Part shown: piece after piece, positions 32,205 to 57,153 of the stretch
Position numbering within the stretch: position 1 is the stretch's first letter
How the letters are laid out: each line of letters opens with the position of its first letter
Assembly (NCBI GenBank): GCA_003215545.1
Contig: QCKF01000007.1
Location: 1 to 57,153 of the forward strand
DNA length: 57,153 bases
Direction: 5' to 3'
Origin: Prochlorococcus sp. AG-409-L14
GTDB lineage: Bacteria; Cyanobacteriota; Cyanobacteriia; PCC-6307; Cyanobiaceae
Made by a program: the position numbers and the translations under genes
The notes under the pieces: model-generated
Databases searched by the model: none
What the model was told of the DNA's origin: nothing
Seen by the model: the letters and a program-made list of their open reading frames with translations, nothing else

Positions 32205-32633
32205 ATGAGCATAGAATTCAACTCATTCTATAAAAGCCTTAAAAAGATATCCGACGGAAGCGAAGATGAGATGAAAAACTTCAAAAGTCTTTTAAGCTCC
32301 TACGAATCAAAATCAGATTGCAAAAATTGCTTTGATGAACTAGGCATGACCTTCTGTTGTAATGGAATAAAATATTTATATGAATATACTGGCTTAAAAG
32401 AATTAAATTATATAAGCAATCTAAAAAGTCAAGTCTGGGAATATCTAGAGAAAAGAGTAGGTAAAACATTAACTAACTACTTAGTAAGCAAGCTAGTAGA
32501 TGCTTATTCTGATAAGGGTCTAAAAGAGGATCTGGCTCAACGGTGGGAAGTAGACGAGAAAGAGATAGAAAGAAATATAGAGCCACTTGCTTTGTACGTA
32601 GTAGAAGGGATTATTGAAGTTATTCAAAAATAG
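32205..32633 (+). CDS. Orphan protein A of a paralogous pair, unknown function
   Basis: A 142-residue, mostly helical, charged protein without signal or membrane helix. It is clearly related to the protein at 36221-36649: both have SDC, an ELG, then GI..LYEY.G.K.L..I, a W preceding E, and a C-terminal WE....IE.N....A.Y..EGII. This one has a CKNC and an FCCN cysteine cluster that the paralogue lacks. I recognise no family. It is followed 70 bases on by a methyltransferase gene. Confidence 0.75.
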   Translation: MSIEFNSFYKSLKKISDGSEDEMKNFKSLLSSYESKSDCKNCFDELGMTFCCNGIKYLYEYTGLKELNYISNLKSQVWEYLEKRVGKTLTNYLVSKLVDAYSDKGLKEDLAQRWEVDEKEIERNIEPLALYVVEGIIEVIQK

Positions 32634-36220: not shown

Positions 36221-36649
36221 GTGGCTGCAGTAGAATTTAGCAAATTCTATATTCTGTTAAATGCAGTAAAGAATGGAGATTCCGAAAAGAGAAAGGAGCT
36301 TGAAGAAATGCTTAAAAGTTTTGAAGCTTCAAGTGATTGCGAAAGTGCTCTGCATGAACTTGGACAAAAATATATTTATGTAGGGATTAACGAATTGTAT
36401 GAATATGCTGGGACCAAGGATCTCAAGGCTATTGGTGATATTGAGAAAGAACAATGGGAAGACATTAAGAACGAAAGGAAGTCAGAACTACCACCTCATC
36501 TTGCTAATACTATGATCTCTTATGCAAAAGAGAACAATCTCTCTAAAGAGATTTCAAAGAAATGGGAATTGCCCAAGAGAGATATTGAAAAAAACCTCAT
36601 GAACATGGCTAGGTATATCACAGAAGGAATTATTGATGCGATAGATTGA
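36221..36649 (+). CDS. Orphan protein B of a paralogous pair, unknown function
   Basis: A 142-residue charged helical protein starting with GTG at 36221, paralogous to the protein at 32205-32633 and exactly the same length. Shared landmarks are F..FY near the start, SDC at about residue 44, ELG, GI.ELYEYAGTKDL, QWE, and the C-terminal WELPKRDIEKNL..MARYITEGII. The cysteine cluster of the other copy is mostly missing here. It has no membrane helix and no family I recognise. The next gene is another orphan. Confidence 0.75.
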   Translation: MAAVEFSKFYILLNAVKNGDSEKRKELEEMLKSFEASSDCESALHELGQKYIYVGINELYEYAGTKDLKAIGDIEKEQWEDIKNERKSELPPHLANTMISYAKENNLSKEISKKWELPKRDIEKNLMNMARYITEGIIDAID

Positions 36650-37463: not shown

Positions 37464-38135
37464 ATGCCGGGAACTTCGAACAATAGAAATGCAACAGAAT
37501 TCCTTCTGGAAGGGAATCAAAAATTACGTGATAATGATCCTGAATCAGCCATAGCAAGCTATACAATGGCTATAGGAAAGGTACCAAACAACTCTTATGC
37601 ATATTGCAATCGAGCAGTAGCTAAAACAAAGTTAAAGCAATTCGAGGGCGCACTTAAAGATTTTCTAGAGGCATTAAAAATAAACCCTTATAATAAAAAA
37701 GCACTTTTCTCTAGTGCAATGATAAAAATCAAAAGTAAAAACTATGAAGAGGCAATGACAGATTTGGATAAACTAATTTATATTAATCCTGATTATAAAA
37801 ATGCATATTTAATACGAGGTGACACTAAATATAACCTCAAGGATTATAAAGGGGGCATTTTAGATTTAACGAAGGCTATTGAAATAGATCCAAATGACTC
37901 AATCGCTTACAATAGACGTGGAGAGTGCAAATTAGTAATAAAAGATTATCATAGTGCTATCAAAGATTTTGAAAAGGCTATTGGCATTAATCAAAAATTT
38001 GCAGAAGCTTATAAAAATCTTGGTGATACGAAGTACAAATTATACAATTACACGCATGGTTGCAAAGACTGGAAGAAGGCAGCTGAGCTTGGGAACAAAA
38101 ATGCTAGAGAACTTTTAGAGAAATACTGTGAATAA
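37464..38135 (+). CDS. TPR-repeat protein
   Basis: A 223-residue protein made of about five tetratricopeptide repeats, e.g. AIASYTMAIGKVPNNSYAYCNRAVAKTKL, ALKDFLEALKINPYNKKALF, GILDLTKAIEIDPNDSIAYNRRGECKL and AIKDFEKAIGINQKFAEAYKNLGDTKY, ending with a Sel1-like CKDWKKAAELGNKNARELL. It should be a soluble protein-binding scaffold. These are standard TPRs and lack the Trp-marked repeat of the genes at 42709 and 56843. Confidence 0.85.
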   Translation: MPGTSNNRNATEFLLEGNQKLRDNDPESAIASYTMAIGKVPNNSYAYCNRAVAKTKLKQFEGALKDFLEALKINPYNKKALFSSAMIKIKSKNYEEAMTDLDKLIYINPDYKNAYLIRGDTKYNLKDYKGGILDLTKAIEIDPNDSIAYNRRGECKLVIKDYHSAIKDFEKAIGINQKFAEAYKNLGDTKYKLYNYTHGCKDWKKAAELGNKNARELLEKYCE

Positions 38136-42708: not shown

Positions 42709-44904
42709 ATGCCCACAACAAATACACACCCAAGCAATAGTAAAAATCCCGAGAAGGAATTGACTTCTAATGGATTCGAACTTTTTAATAACCAAAGATT
42801 CAAGGAAGCTATAGCAGCCTTCAAATTCTCTTTAACAATTAAAGAAGACTGGAAGACATACCAAGCTCTAGGATGGGCACTTTTTAATACAGAGCAAAAT
42901 GATGAAGCAATTGATGCTTTTCACAAGTCATTAACTCTTAATGAGAACTGGAGCTCTTTTCAAGGCCTAGGACTAACACTAGTAAACAATTCTAATCCTA
43001 TAGAAGCAATTACAATGTTACGTCGATCCATTTCCATAAAAGAAACTTGGGAGTCATATCAGGCACTAGGGTTAGCTCTTTTTAATACTAAAAATTACCA
43101 AGAATCTATTGATGCATTCAAAAAGTCACTAGTTCTTAAAGAAGACTGGCGCACCTTCAACGGACTTGGTTGGGCACTTTTTAAAAATAAAAATCATAAG
43201 GAGTCGATCGATTCTTTTGAAAAAGCGCTTGATATTTTAGAAGAATGGAATTCTTATCAAGGTCTAGGATGGGCCCTATTAAATACAAAAAATAGTAAGA
43301 AGGCAATTGAAGCCTTTAATAAGTCAATCACTCTGAAAGAAGATTGGAGTTCACTTCAAGGACTAGGTTGGGCTTTGATTAATTCAAAACAAAATACAAA
43401 AGCAATTGAAGCATTTCAAGCCTCACTTACTCTTAGAGAACACTGGAATTCTTTTCATGGTCTGGCCTGGGCATTTTTGAATACAAATAAAAATGAAAAA
43501 GCAATCGATGCCTTCAGTAAATCATTAACTCTAAAAGAGGACTGGAGTTCATTTCAAGGTCTCGGCTGGGCGTTTACTAACGCAGGGCGACACCATAAGG
43601 CAATAGAGGCATTTGAGAAATCAATTTCTATTAAGAGTGACTGGAATACATATTTCTCTATTGCTTTGATAAAAATAAAGCAAAATGAGTTTAAAGAGGC
43701 AGTTGAAGCTCACATAAAGTCAGTGGAGCTCAATAAAAATGAGAGTTTATATTTAGATAGTTTTTATACAGAAGTCGCAAACCAATTTGAAGATTTAGGT
43801 AAGGAAAATTCTGCAAGGCGTTGCTGGGAAATCTATTATGCAAACCAATTACCCTATGCAAAAATAAACCCCTTCTTAAATGAAAAGCCTATATATCAGA
43901 CCATAGAGCTAGAAGACTTAAATGAGATAAAGAGTCATTGCCATAGTAATGGATTTGTTTTCCAACCTTCATATGCCAATAATGATTTATATGAATTAGC
44001 TAATTGGAGAAATATGATGTATCTTCATATACCTAAATGTGGTGGTACTTCTTTTAAGATTCCTTTACTAATGTTATATCATTTATTGAGCAATTCAAAA
44101 CTTAAATCAAATGATAATTATATTAATTGTCTGGTAACAGGAAATATTGGTTCTAAAAGCCAAGAAGAAGCTCTGAAAAAGTCAATTACAAGAAATAAAT
44201 ATAAAAGTTTGGACAACATTTTCTTTACAAGCTATACAGAGAACTGGGAAGAGCTATATAGACATGTAAGCCAAGAAAGTCATAAAAATCCAAGAATAAT
44301 TGCAACGATACGAAACCCTAGAGAAAGATTGTTATCACACTTAAAAATGGTAGCCGAAAACTGTCAAACAAAAGATGAATTAATAGAAATCATTAATAAG
44401 TATAAGAATGAATATGATAATTGCATCTACAGGTATTTATTTACAGGAAAAGCCAAGGACCAAAAAAAATACTTGAAAGGACCAAACTACGATTTAATTA
44501 AAGATATAGATTTTGTAGATATATCAGACCATGAAACAATATCAAAACTTAAATCAGCTTTTTTAAGTGCTTCTAAATTACCCAATATAGTTCAATATTC
44601 AAAGCTAAATGACTCAAAGAATCGCTTAACCAGGATTGAAAATAAAATTCCTTACAAAGAAATTGAGCAAGTTTATCATTACTGTATAAAGCATAATTTC
44701 GTTGAAAAAGATGAGTCTATAAACTATGATTACTTAAAGTCAACAACAAAGAAGAGGCTTAATTTGCCATATTTTGAAAAGTCTAAAACATGCAAAGTAC
44801 ACCCTCTTACATTTATAATTAAAAGTGAAAAAGAGTATGAAATTATTCCCACACATGAATTCCTTAAATGTCCTTCAATTTCTCTTGAAAAAGATTATAC
44901 TTAA
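42709..44904 (+). CDS. TPR-sulfotransferase fusion protein
   Basis: A 731-residue protein in two parts. Residues about 16-345 form about ten 34-residue TPR units, nine marked by a W then S/T and a G/A-L-G core, e.g. EDWSSLQGLGWAL and EAFNKSITLK. Residues about 430-700 form a sulfotransferase-like domain: PAPS 5'-loop YLHIPKCGGTSFKIP at about 436, and the 3'-phosphate motif IIATIRNPRERLLSHL at about 530. No signal peptide. It may sulfate a surface glycan or protein bound by the TPR. It stands alone, 200 bases after the C-methyltransferase gene. Confidence 0.88.
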   Translation: MPTTNTHPSNSKNPEKELTSNGFELFNNQRFKEAIAAFKFSLTIKEDWKTYQALGWALFNTEQNDEAIDAFHKSLTLNENWSSFQGLGLTLVNNSNPIEAITMLRRSISIKETWESYQALGLALFNTKNYQESIDAFKKSLVLKEDWRTFNGLGWALFKNKNHKESIDSFEKALDILEEWNSYQGLGWALLNTKNSKKAIEAFNKSITLKEDWSSLQGLGWALINSKQNTKAIEAFQASLTLREHWNSFHGLAWAFLNTNKNEKAIDAFSKSLTLKEDWSSFQGLGWAFTNAGRHHKAIEAFEKSISIKSDWNTYFSIALIKIKQNEFKEAVEAHIKSVELNKNESLYLDSFYTEVANQFEDLGKENSARRCWEIYYANQLPYAKINPFLNEKPIYQTIELEDLNEIKSHCHSNGFVFQPSYANNDLYELANWRNMMYLHIPKCGGTSFKIPLLMLYHLLSNSKLKSNDNYINCLVTGNIGSKSQEEALKKSITRNKYKSLDNIFFTSYTENWEELYRHVSQESHKNPRIIATIRNPRERLLSHLKMVAENCQTKDELIEIINKYKNEYDNCIYRYLFTGKAKDQKKYLKGPNYDLIKDIDFVDISDHETISKLKSAFLSASKLPNIVQYSKLNDSKNRLTRIENKIPYKEIEQVYHYCIKHNFVEKDESINYDYLKSTTKKRLNLPYFEKSKTCKVHPLTFIIKSEKEYEIIPTHEFLKCPSISLEKDYT

Positions 44905-56842: not shown

Positions 56843-57153
56843 ATGCAGGAAATCAATACACCAGAAGGTTTCTATGCTTTAGGGATAGAAAACTACAAGA
56901 GGGGAGATTTTCAAGCAGCAAAAGAAGCATTCAATGCCTCACTTGAACTGAAAGAAGACTGGCGGTCCTTCAAAGGACTCGGATGGGCGCTGTTCAACTC
57001 GCAGCAATACCAACCAGCAATAAAGGAATTCAATAAATCACTTGCTCTTCAAAAAGATTGGCAGTCCCACCAAGGTCTTGGATGGGCGCTGTTCAACACG
57101 CAGCAAGATCAACCAGCAATAGATGCATTCAATAAATCACTTGCACTAAAAGA
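56843..57153 (+). CDS. TPR-repeat protein with Trp-marked units, 3' end outside window
   Basis: ATG at 56843 opens a frame that is still open at the last base. It contains YALGIENYKRGDFQAAKEAF then 34-residue units marked KEDWRSFKGLGWALFN and KDWQSHQGLGWALFNTQQ with AIDAFNKSLALK. This is the same unit as in the TPR-sulfotransferase at 42709-44904, so a C-terminal sulfotransferase-type domain beyond the edge is possible but unseen. Two units here are near-identical in DNA, suggesting recent repeat expansion. Confidence 0.85.
   Translation, partial: MQEINTPEGFYALGIENYKRGDFQAAKEAFNASLELKEDWRSFKGLGWALFNSQQYQPAIKEFNKSLALQKDWQSHQGLGWALFNTQQDQPAIDAFNKSLALK

Follow-up and report, generated by a model that had tools for sequence, protein, structure and literature searches.

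The locus and its repeat array

The window analyzed here is a 57,153-nt stretch of a contig from Prochlorococcus sp. AG-409-L14. Positions 42709–44904 of its forward strand form a single open reading frame (ORF) of 731 residues, in which the ORF call, Pfam, and an AlphaFold model place a TPR-like array at the N-terminus and a Sulfotransfer_2-type domain at the C-terminus. The fusion of a TPR array to a PAPS-type sulfotransferase, as claimed by the initial annotation, was borne out by Pfam TPR matches over the N-terminal half of the ORF (TPR_1, E = 1.9e-48), by a PF03567 score over the cut-off, and by alignment of the domain. On the forward strand, the array comprises an initial TPR-like unit whose position 1 is not Trp (42751–42849; repeat-period analysis), nine Trp-led 33-residue units (residues 48–344; 42850–43740), recognized by their Trp spacing, by autocorrelation, and as helix pairs in the model, and a degenerate last helix pair (residues 346–379; 43744–43845; model) that links the array to the enzyme domain.

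Autocorrelation gave a period of exactly 33 residues, with a self-identity of 0.444 at lag 33 (shuffle maximum, 0.141) and values below 0.1 at all other lags from 25 to 44. The 34-residue period of canonical TPRs was rejected accordingly. The about ten regular 34-residue units described originally are thus regular far beyond chance, but 33 residues long, and consist of nine Trp-led units and one that lacks the Trp, with 11 helix pairs modelled. The Trp reported at a fixed position is indeed found at position 1 of nine units (residues 48, 81, 114, 147, 180, 213, 246, 279, and 312), but a second position is also used, with Trp at position 9 in six of the nine (residues 56, 155, 188, 221, 254, and 287). 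Set in the TPR register (L7, G8, A20, F24), the units lack one residue of the canonical loop and usually have Ser in place of A27 (90% of collected units), which makes the array a one-residue-shorter TPR variant, referred to here as Trp-33. The consensus of 171 units from relatives is W1 (0.78), Y4 (0.78), L7, G8, A20, I21, F24, and S27 (0.90). AlphaFold2, supplied with 15 sequences, modelled a solenoid of 11 helix pairs over residues 14–379, with a pLDDT of about 90 over most of its length. Together with Pfam, the model shows helix-turn-helix units carrying the TPR signature residues, and its best PDB fold matches were the TPR domain of OGT and SPINDLY.

Pairwise identities between the core units are 33–66% for protein and 45–74% for DNA. 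Codon and DNA identity between units gave no indication of a recent unit expansion in this gene, a reading that was rejected, and to judge from their sequences the repeats of the window copy are old. A second Trp-33 gene begins near the end of the window (56843–57153, forward strand) and is still in its array when the contig runs out at its final base. Another contig of the same genome, C21 (L039, 1–1374), opens inside a closely similar array that is followed by a sister sulfotransferase domain, and the two pieces are probably one gene that was split in its repeats during assembly. The C21 array holds two exact 99-bp copies, from which it follows that arrays of this family do expand. The suggestion that units can expand therefore holds for the family, where these exact copies are joined by a relative with a within-array identity of 0.93; it is not supported for the window copy.

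The sulfotransferase-type domain and Tyr509

The enzyme domain spans residues 378–731 (43840–44901, forward strand), as defined by Pfam and by alignment of relatives. PF03567 (Sulfotransfer_2) matched residues 435–580 when the whole ORF was scanned, and the isolated domain scored 27.0 bits, above the curated cut-off of 22. Alignment located the 5′-phosphosulfate-binding (PSB) motif LHIPKCGGTSF (K443, G446, and T447) at 44023–44055 and the 3′-phosphate-binding (PB) motif IRNPRERLLSHLK (R535 and S543) at 44308–44346, both on the forward strand; the quoted motifs HIPKCGGTS and RNPRERLLSH are both present in the ORF at these sites. None of these five PAPS-binding residues has been lost, a point on which the initial annotation had staked its reading. 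The domain was modelled with less confidence than the array in the full AlphaFold2 model, and reached a pLDDT of 75 and a pTM of 0.79 when modelled alone. Foldseek searches with the domain model returned mostly PAPS sulfotransferases among the top matches, but with a best E of 0.012 and TM of 0.2–0.3. Since the structural matches are weak, the assignment of the sulfotransferase fold leans mainly on the motifs and Pfam.

An alignment of 25 sequences, with relatives down to about 25% identity, revealed one His between the PSB and PB motifs in 22 of them. The window gene has Tyr509 at this site (TAT, 44233–44235, forward strand), as does a paralogue on contig C32 of the same genome, whereas the L005 protein is one of the relatives that keep the His. 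Sulfotransferases employ His or Glu as the base (PMC11625862), and the conserved His is the likely catalytic base, judging from its conservation and its position at the end of a strand before helix 513–524; a search by sequence for a solved homologue in which to place it found only fragments of weak matches. Because this His is replaced by Tyr509, the activity of the window copy, namely PAPS-dependent sulfate transfer, is uncertain. The Tyr codon could also have arisen as a single C-to-T error in amplification or assembly.

Distribution of the array and the attached enzymes

A scan for relatives, covering one genome per species in 84,980 species, returned 14 loci, all from Prochlorococcus single-cell genomes of the AG-363, AG-404, and AG-409 series, a collection described in PMC6122165. 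Within the family of the window genome, 14 of 300 genomes contain a relative of the domain. Relatives with a complete N-terminus carry a Trp-33 array, so that the repeats are not missing from the relatives. The number of units, for which comparison between strains had been proposed, varies in those with a sulfotransferase domain between about 3 and 9, strict-pattern counts that represent lower bounds. No viral or phage copies were found in IMG/VR or in phage records, and a viral origin was rejected on these grounds.

When four units were used as the query, array matches at E ≤ 1e-15 were obtained in 19 of 400 family genomes, and among 390 genomes across the class only one match fell beyond the family, a TPR with 34% identity (8e-17). 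The domains behind the array include Sulfotransfer_2 (ST2), GT61 glycosyltransferase (PF04577, E = 8e-14 to 1e-18), Methyltransf_24, TylF-type methyltransferase, and SGNH-like domains, the last being labelled by their motifs (GxSH, HCGGG, and DxxHL) and one sub-threshold Pfam match, with no match to PDB profiles. The GT61 combination also occurs in a complete genome (G057). The genome of the window, 1.15 Mb and 64% complete, encodes one such SGNH-like protein of 754 residues on contig C3 (L038, 3146–5407), in which a Trp-33 array precedes the motifs GDSH, HCGGG, and DPIHLH and a tail without a PDB profile match. The array is present in multiple copies in a few Prochlorococcus genomes, often with several in one gene cluster: SGNH-like, TylF, and ST2 genes lie within 9 kb on G052 contig 10, two ST2 genes, one GT61, and one methyltransferase gene within 29 kb on G020 contig 6, and ST2 and SGNH-like genes within about 6 kb on G042 contig 34. 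In the TylF-type gene of G052 contig 10 (L092, 9599–11107), the Trp-33 units are 93% identical among themselves, a level of sequence identity that suggests recent expansion. In two other genes (L091, 1–1116, and L097, 4682–6169), the tail C-terminal to the Trp-33 array is matched by no Pfam family.

The sequence of the array was compared with the class of the attached enzyme in a protein-level permutation test on 27 proteins, which has limited power for the small classes. Same-class minus different-class identity was −0.014 over all positions (p = 0.81) and −0.005 over variable positions (p = 0.63), and +0.018 (p = 0.15), a slight lean toward a class signal, over five positions that we take, from general knowledge of TPRs, to form the concave face. 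No genome-of-origin signal was found in the array sequences. Arrays of different enzyme classes reach DNA identities of 67–81%, whereas between the two ST2 subfamilies the domains are only about 30% identical. Identity is higher within than between arrays (0.50 versus 0.44). Because array identity ignores enzyme class, the Trp-33 array appears to act as a module common to several enzymes.

Genomic setting and proposed role

The island around the window gene encodes a Bac_transf sugar transferase, a GT4 and two GT2 glycosyltransferases, a Wzy_C protein, and several methyltransferases, and an APS kinase, which belongs to the route to PAPS, is present in the same genome. Cyanobacterial sulfotransferases of the PF00685, PF03567, and PF13469 families reside mostly in exopolysaccharide clusters (PMC8205485). 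These three observations favor a docking array for envelope-glycan tailoring. Our leading, though tentative, reading is that the window protein tailors an envelope glycan, or a glycosylated surface protein, and that the array docks several tailoring enzymes to one partner. The Trp-33 solenoid, as a docking or scaffold module used throughout the family, would recruit the sulfotransferase, GT61 glycosyltransferase, methyltransferases, and SGNH-like acyl enzymes to a common partner, presumably an acceptor, carrier, or platform for assembly that they all share, and the C-terminal domain of the window protein would bind PAPS and pass sulfate to that acceptor, a glycan by our reading. TPR arrays are promiscuous, and may bind different partners despite similar sequence. 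Also counted against the docking model are the lean toward a class signal at the concave face, the weak fold match, and Tyr509, which may leave the window copy inactive. A bolder version, conceivable but unlikely, holds that the array, specific to its lineage, is a universal docking handle, with a logic like that of dockerins, in a small and mostly uncultured Prochlorococcus group, joining the four kinds of enzyme in one glycan-tailoring platform and changing in length by gain or loss of 99-bp units.

The initial annotation had proposed a substrate-recognition array that steers sulfation, such that differences between arrays would choose the molecule to be sulfated. The variable unit number among sulfotransferase relatives agrees with this proposal, and the TPR arrays of OGT and SPINDLY do pick acceptor proteins for the fused transferase. 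However, arrays of the same type also precede enzymes of at least three further classes, and since their sequences show no dependence on the enzyme that follows, a sulfation-specialized array is disfavored relative to a shared docking or scaffold module; the proposal is weakened, and we regard it as rather doubtful. That the window copy is a non-catalytic scaffold, which may still bind PAPS or a partner, is unlikely. The conservation of the His, its replacement by Tyr in both the window copy and the C32 paralogue, and the use of His or Glu as the base by sulfotransferases speak for it, but all other binding residues are kept, no stop or frameshift was seen, the Tyr codon itself may be an error as noted above, and the role of the His was deduced from where it lies and how well it is conserved instead of from a solved homologue.

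Least probable, and improbable in our estimation, is an ordinary fusion in which a generic TPR array aids folding or oligomerization without a shared partner, and in which the likeness of the arrays reflects common origin and concerted evolution. Plain 34-residue TPR-sulfotransferase fusions occur in the same family, and the excess of within-array over between-array identity is what concerted evolution yields; against this, the arrays are joined to enzymes of the envelope-glycan type in clustered genes, and the 33-residue Trp form is kept on all of them. Those plain fusions, from marine picocyanobacteria (L004, L015, L021, and L027), resemble the window gene in that a TPR array precedes a sulfotransferase domain 24–31% identical to its own, but their TPRs are of the usual 34-residue kind and lack the Trp signature. 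L004 (739–2457) is the C32 paralogue, with canonical TPRs and a related domain.

Among better-known systems, PF03567 members such as the heparan sulfate 2-O/6-O-sulfotransferases share with the window protein the PSB motif HIPKxGGTS, the PB motif R-x-P-x-x-R-x-x-S, and the Pfam score, whereas the window protein has Tyr for the conserved His and an N-terminal TPR array; solved members match its domain weakly (HS6ST-3, 5t03, E = 0.31). OGT and SPINDLY likewise place a long TPR superhelix ahead of a transferase, and among PDB folds the array matches the OGT TPR domain best. Their catalytic domain is unrelated (no Pfam match to GT41 was found in the window ORF), their units have 34 residues compared with the 33-residue Trp form, and the Trp-33 array is common to several enzyme classes. 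The Xss sulfotransferases of the synechan cluster of Synechocystis 6803 are also cyanobacterial and located in an exopolysaccharide cluster (PMC8205485), but the window island is a different gene set.

TPR-enzyme fusions, including TPR-sulfotransferases, are already known. The literature search turned up no report of a distinct 33-residue Trp variant that is common to at least four enzyme classes and, in the genomes sampled, limited to part of a single picocyanobacterial family; nor did it find a paper on TPR-sulfotransferase fusions in Prochlorococcus. An abundance of TPR proteins is reported for low-light Prochlorococcus and has so far been explained by photosystem assembly (PMC11357015). 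Here, TPR-like proteins are tied instead to enzymes of the envelope-glycan type through a distinctive common repeat. If there is one common partner, the array would open a practical route to studying how these cells assemble and vary their surface, a trait that affects their contact with phages and grazers. Elsewhere in the glycan island, two similar 142-residue ORFs (32205–32633 and 36221–36649) are apparently paralogues. A few genes upstream of the fusion, 37464–38135 encodes a 223-residue protein of ordinary 34-residue TPRs.
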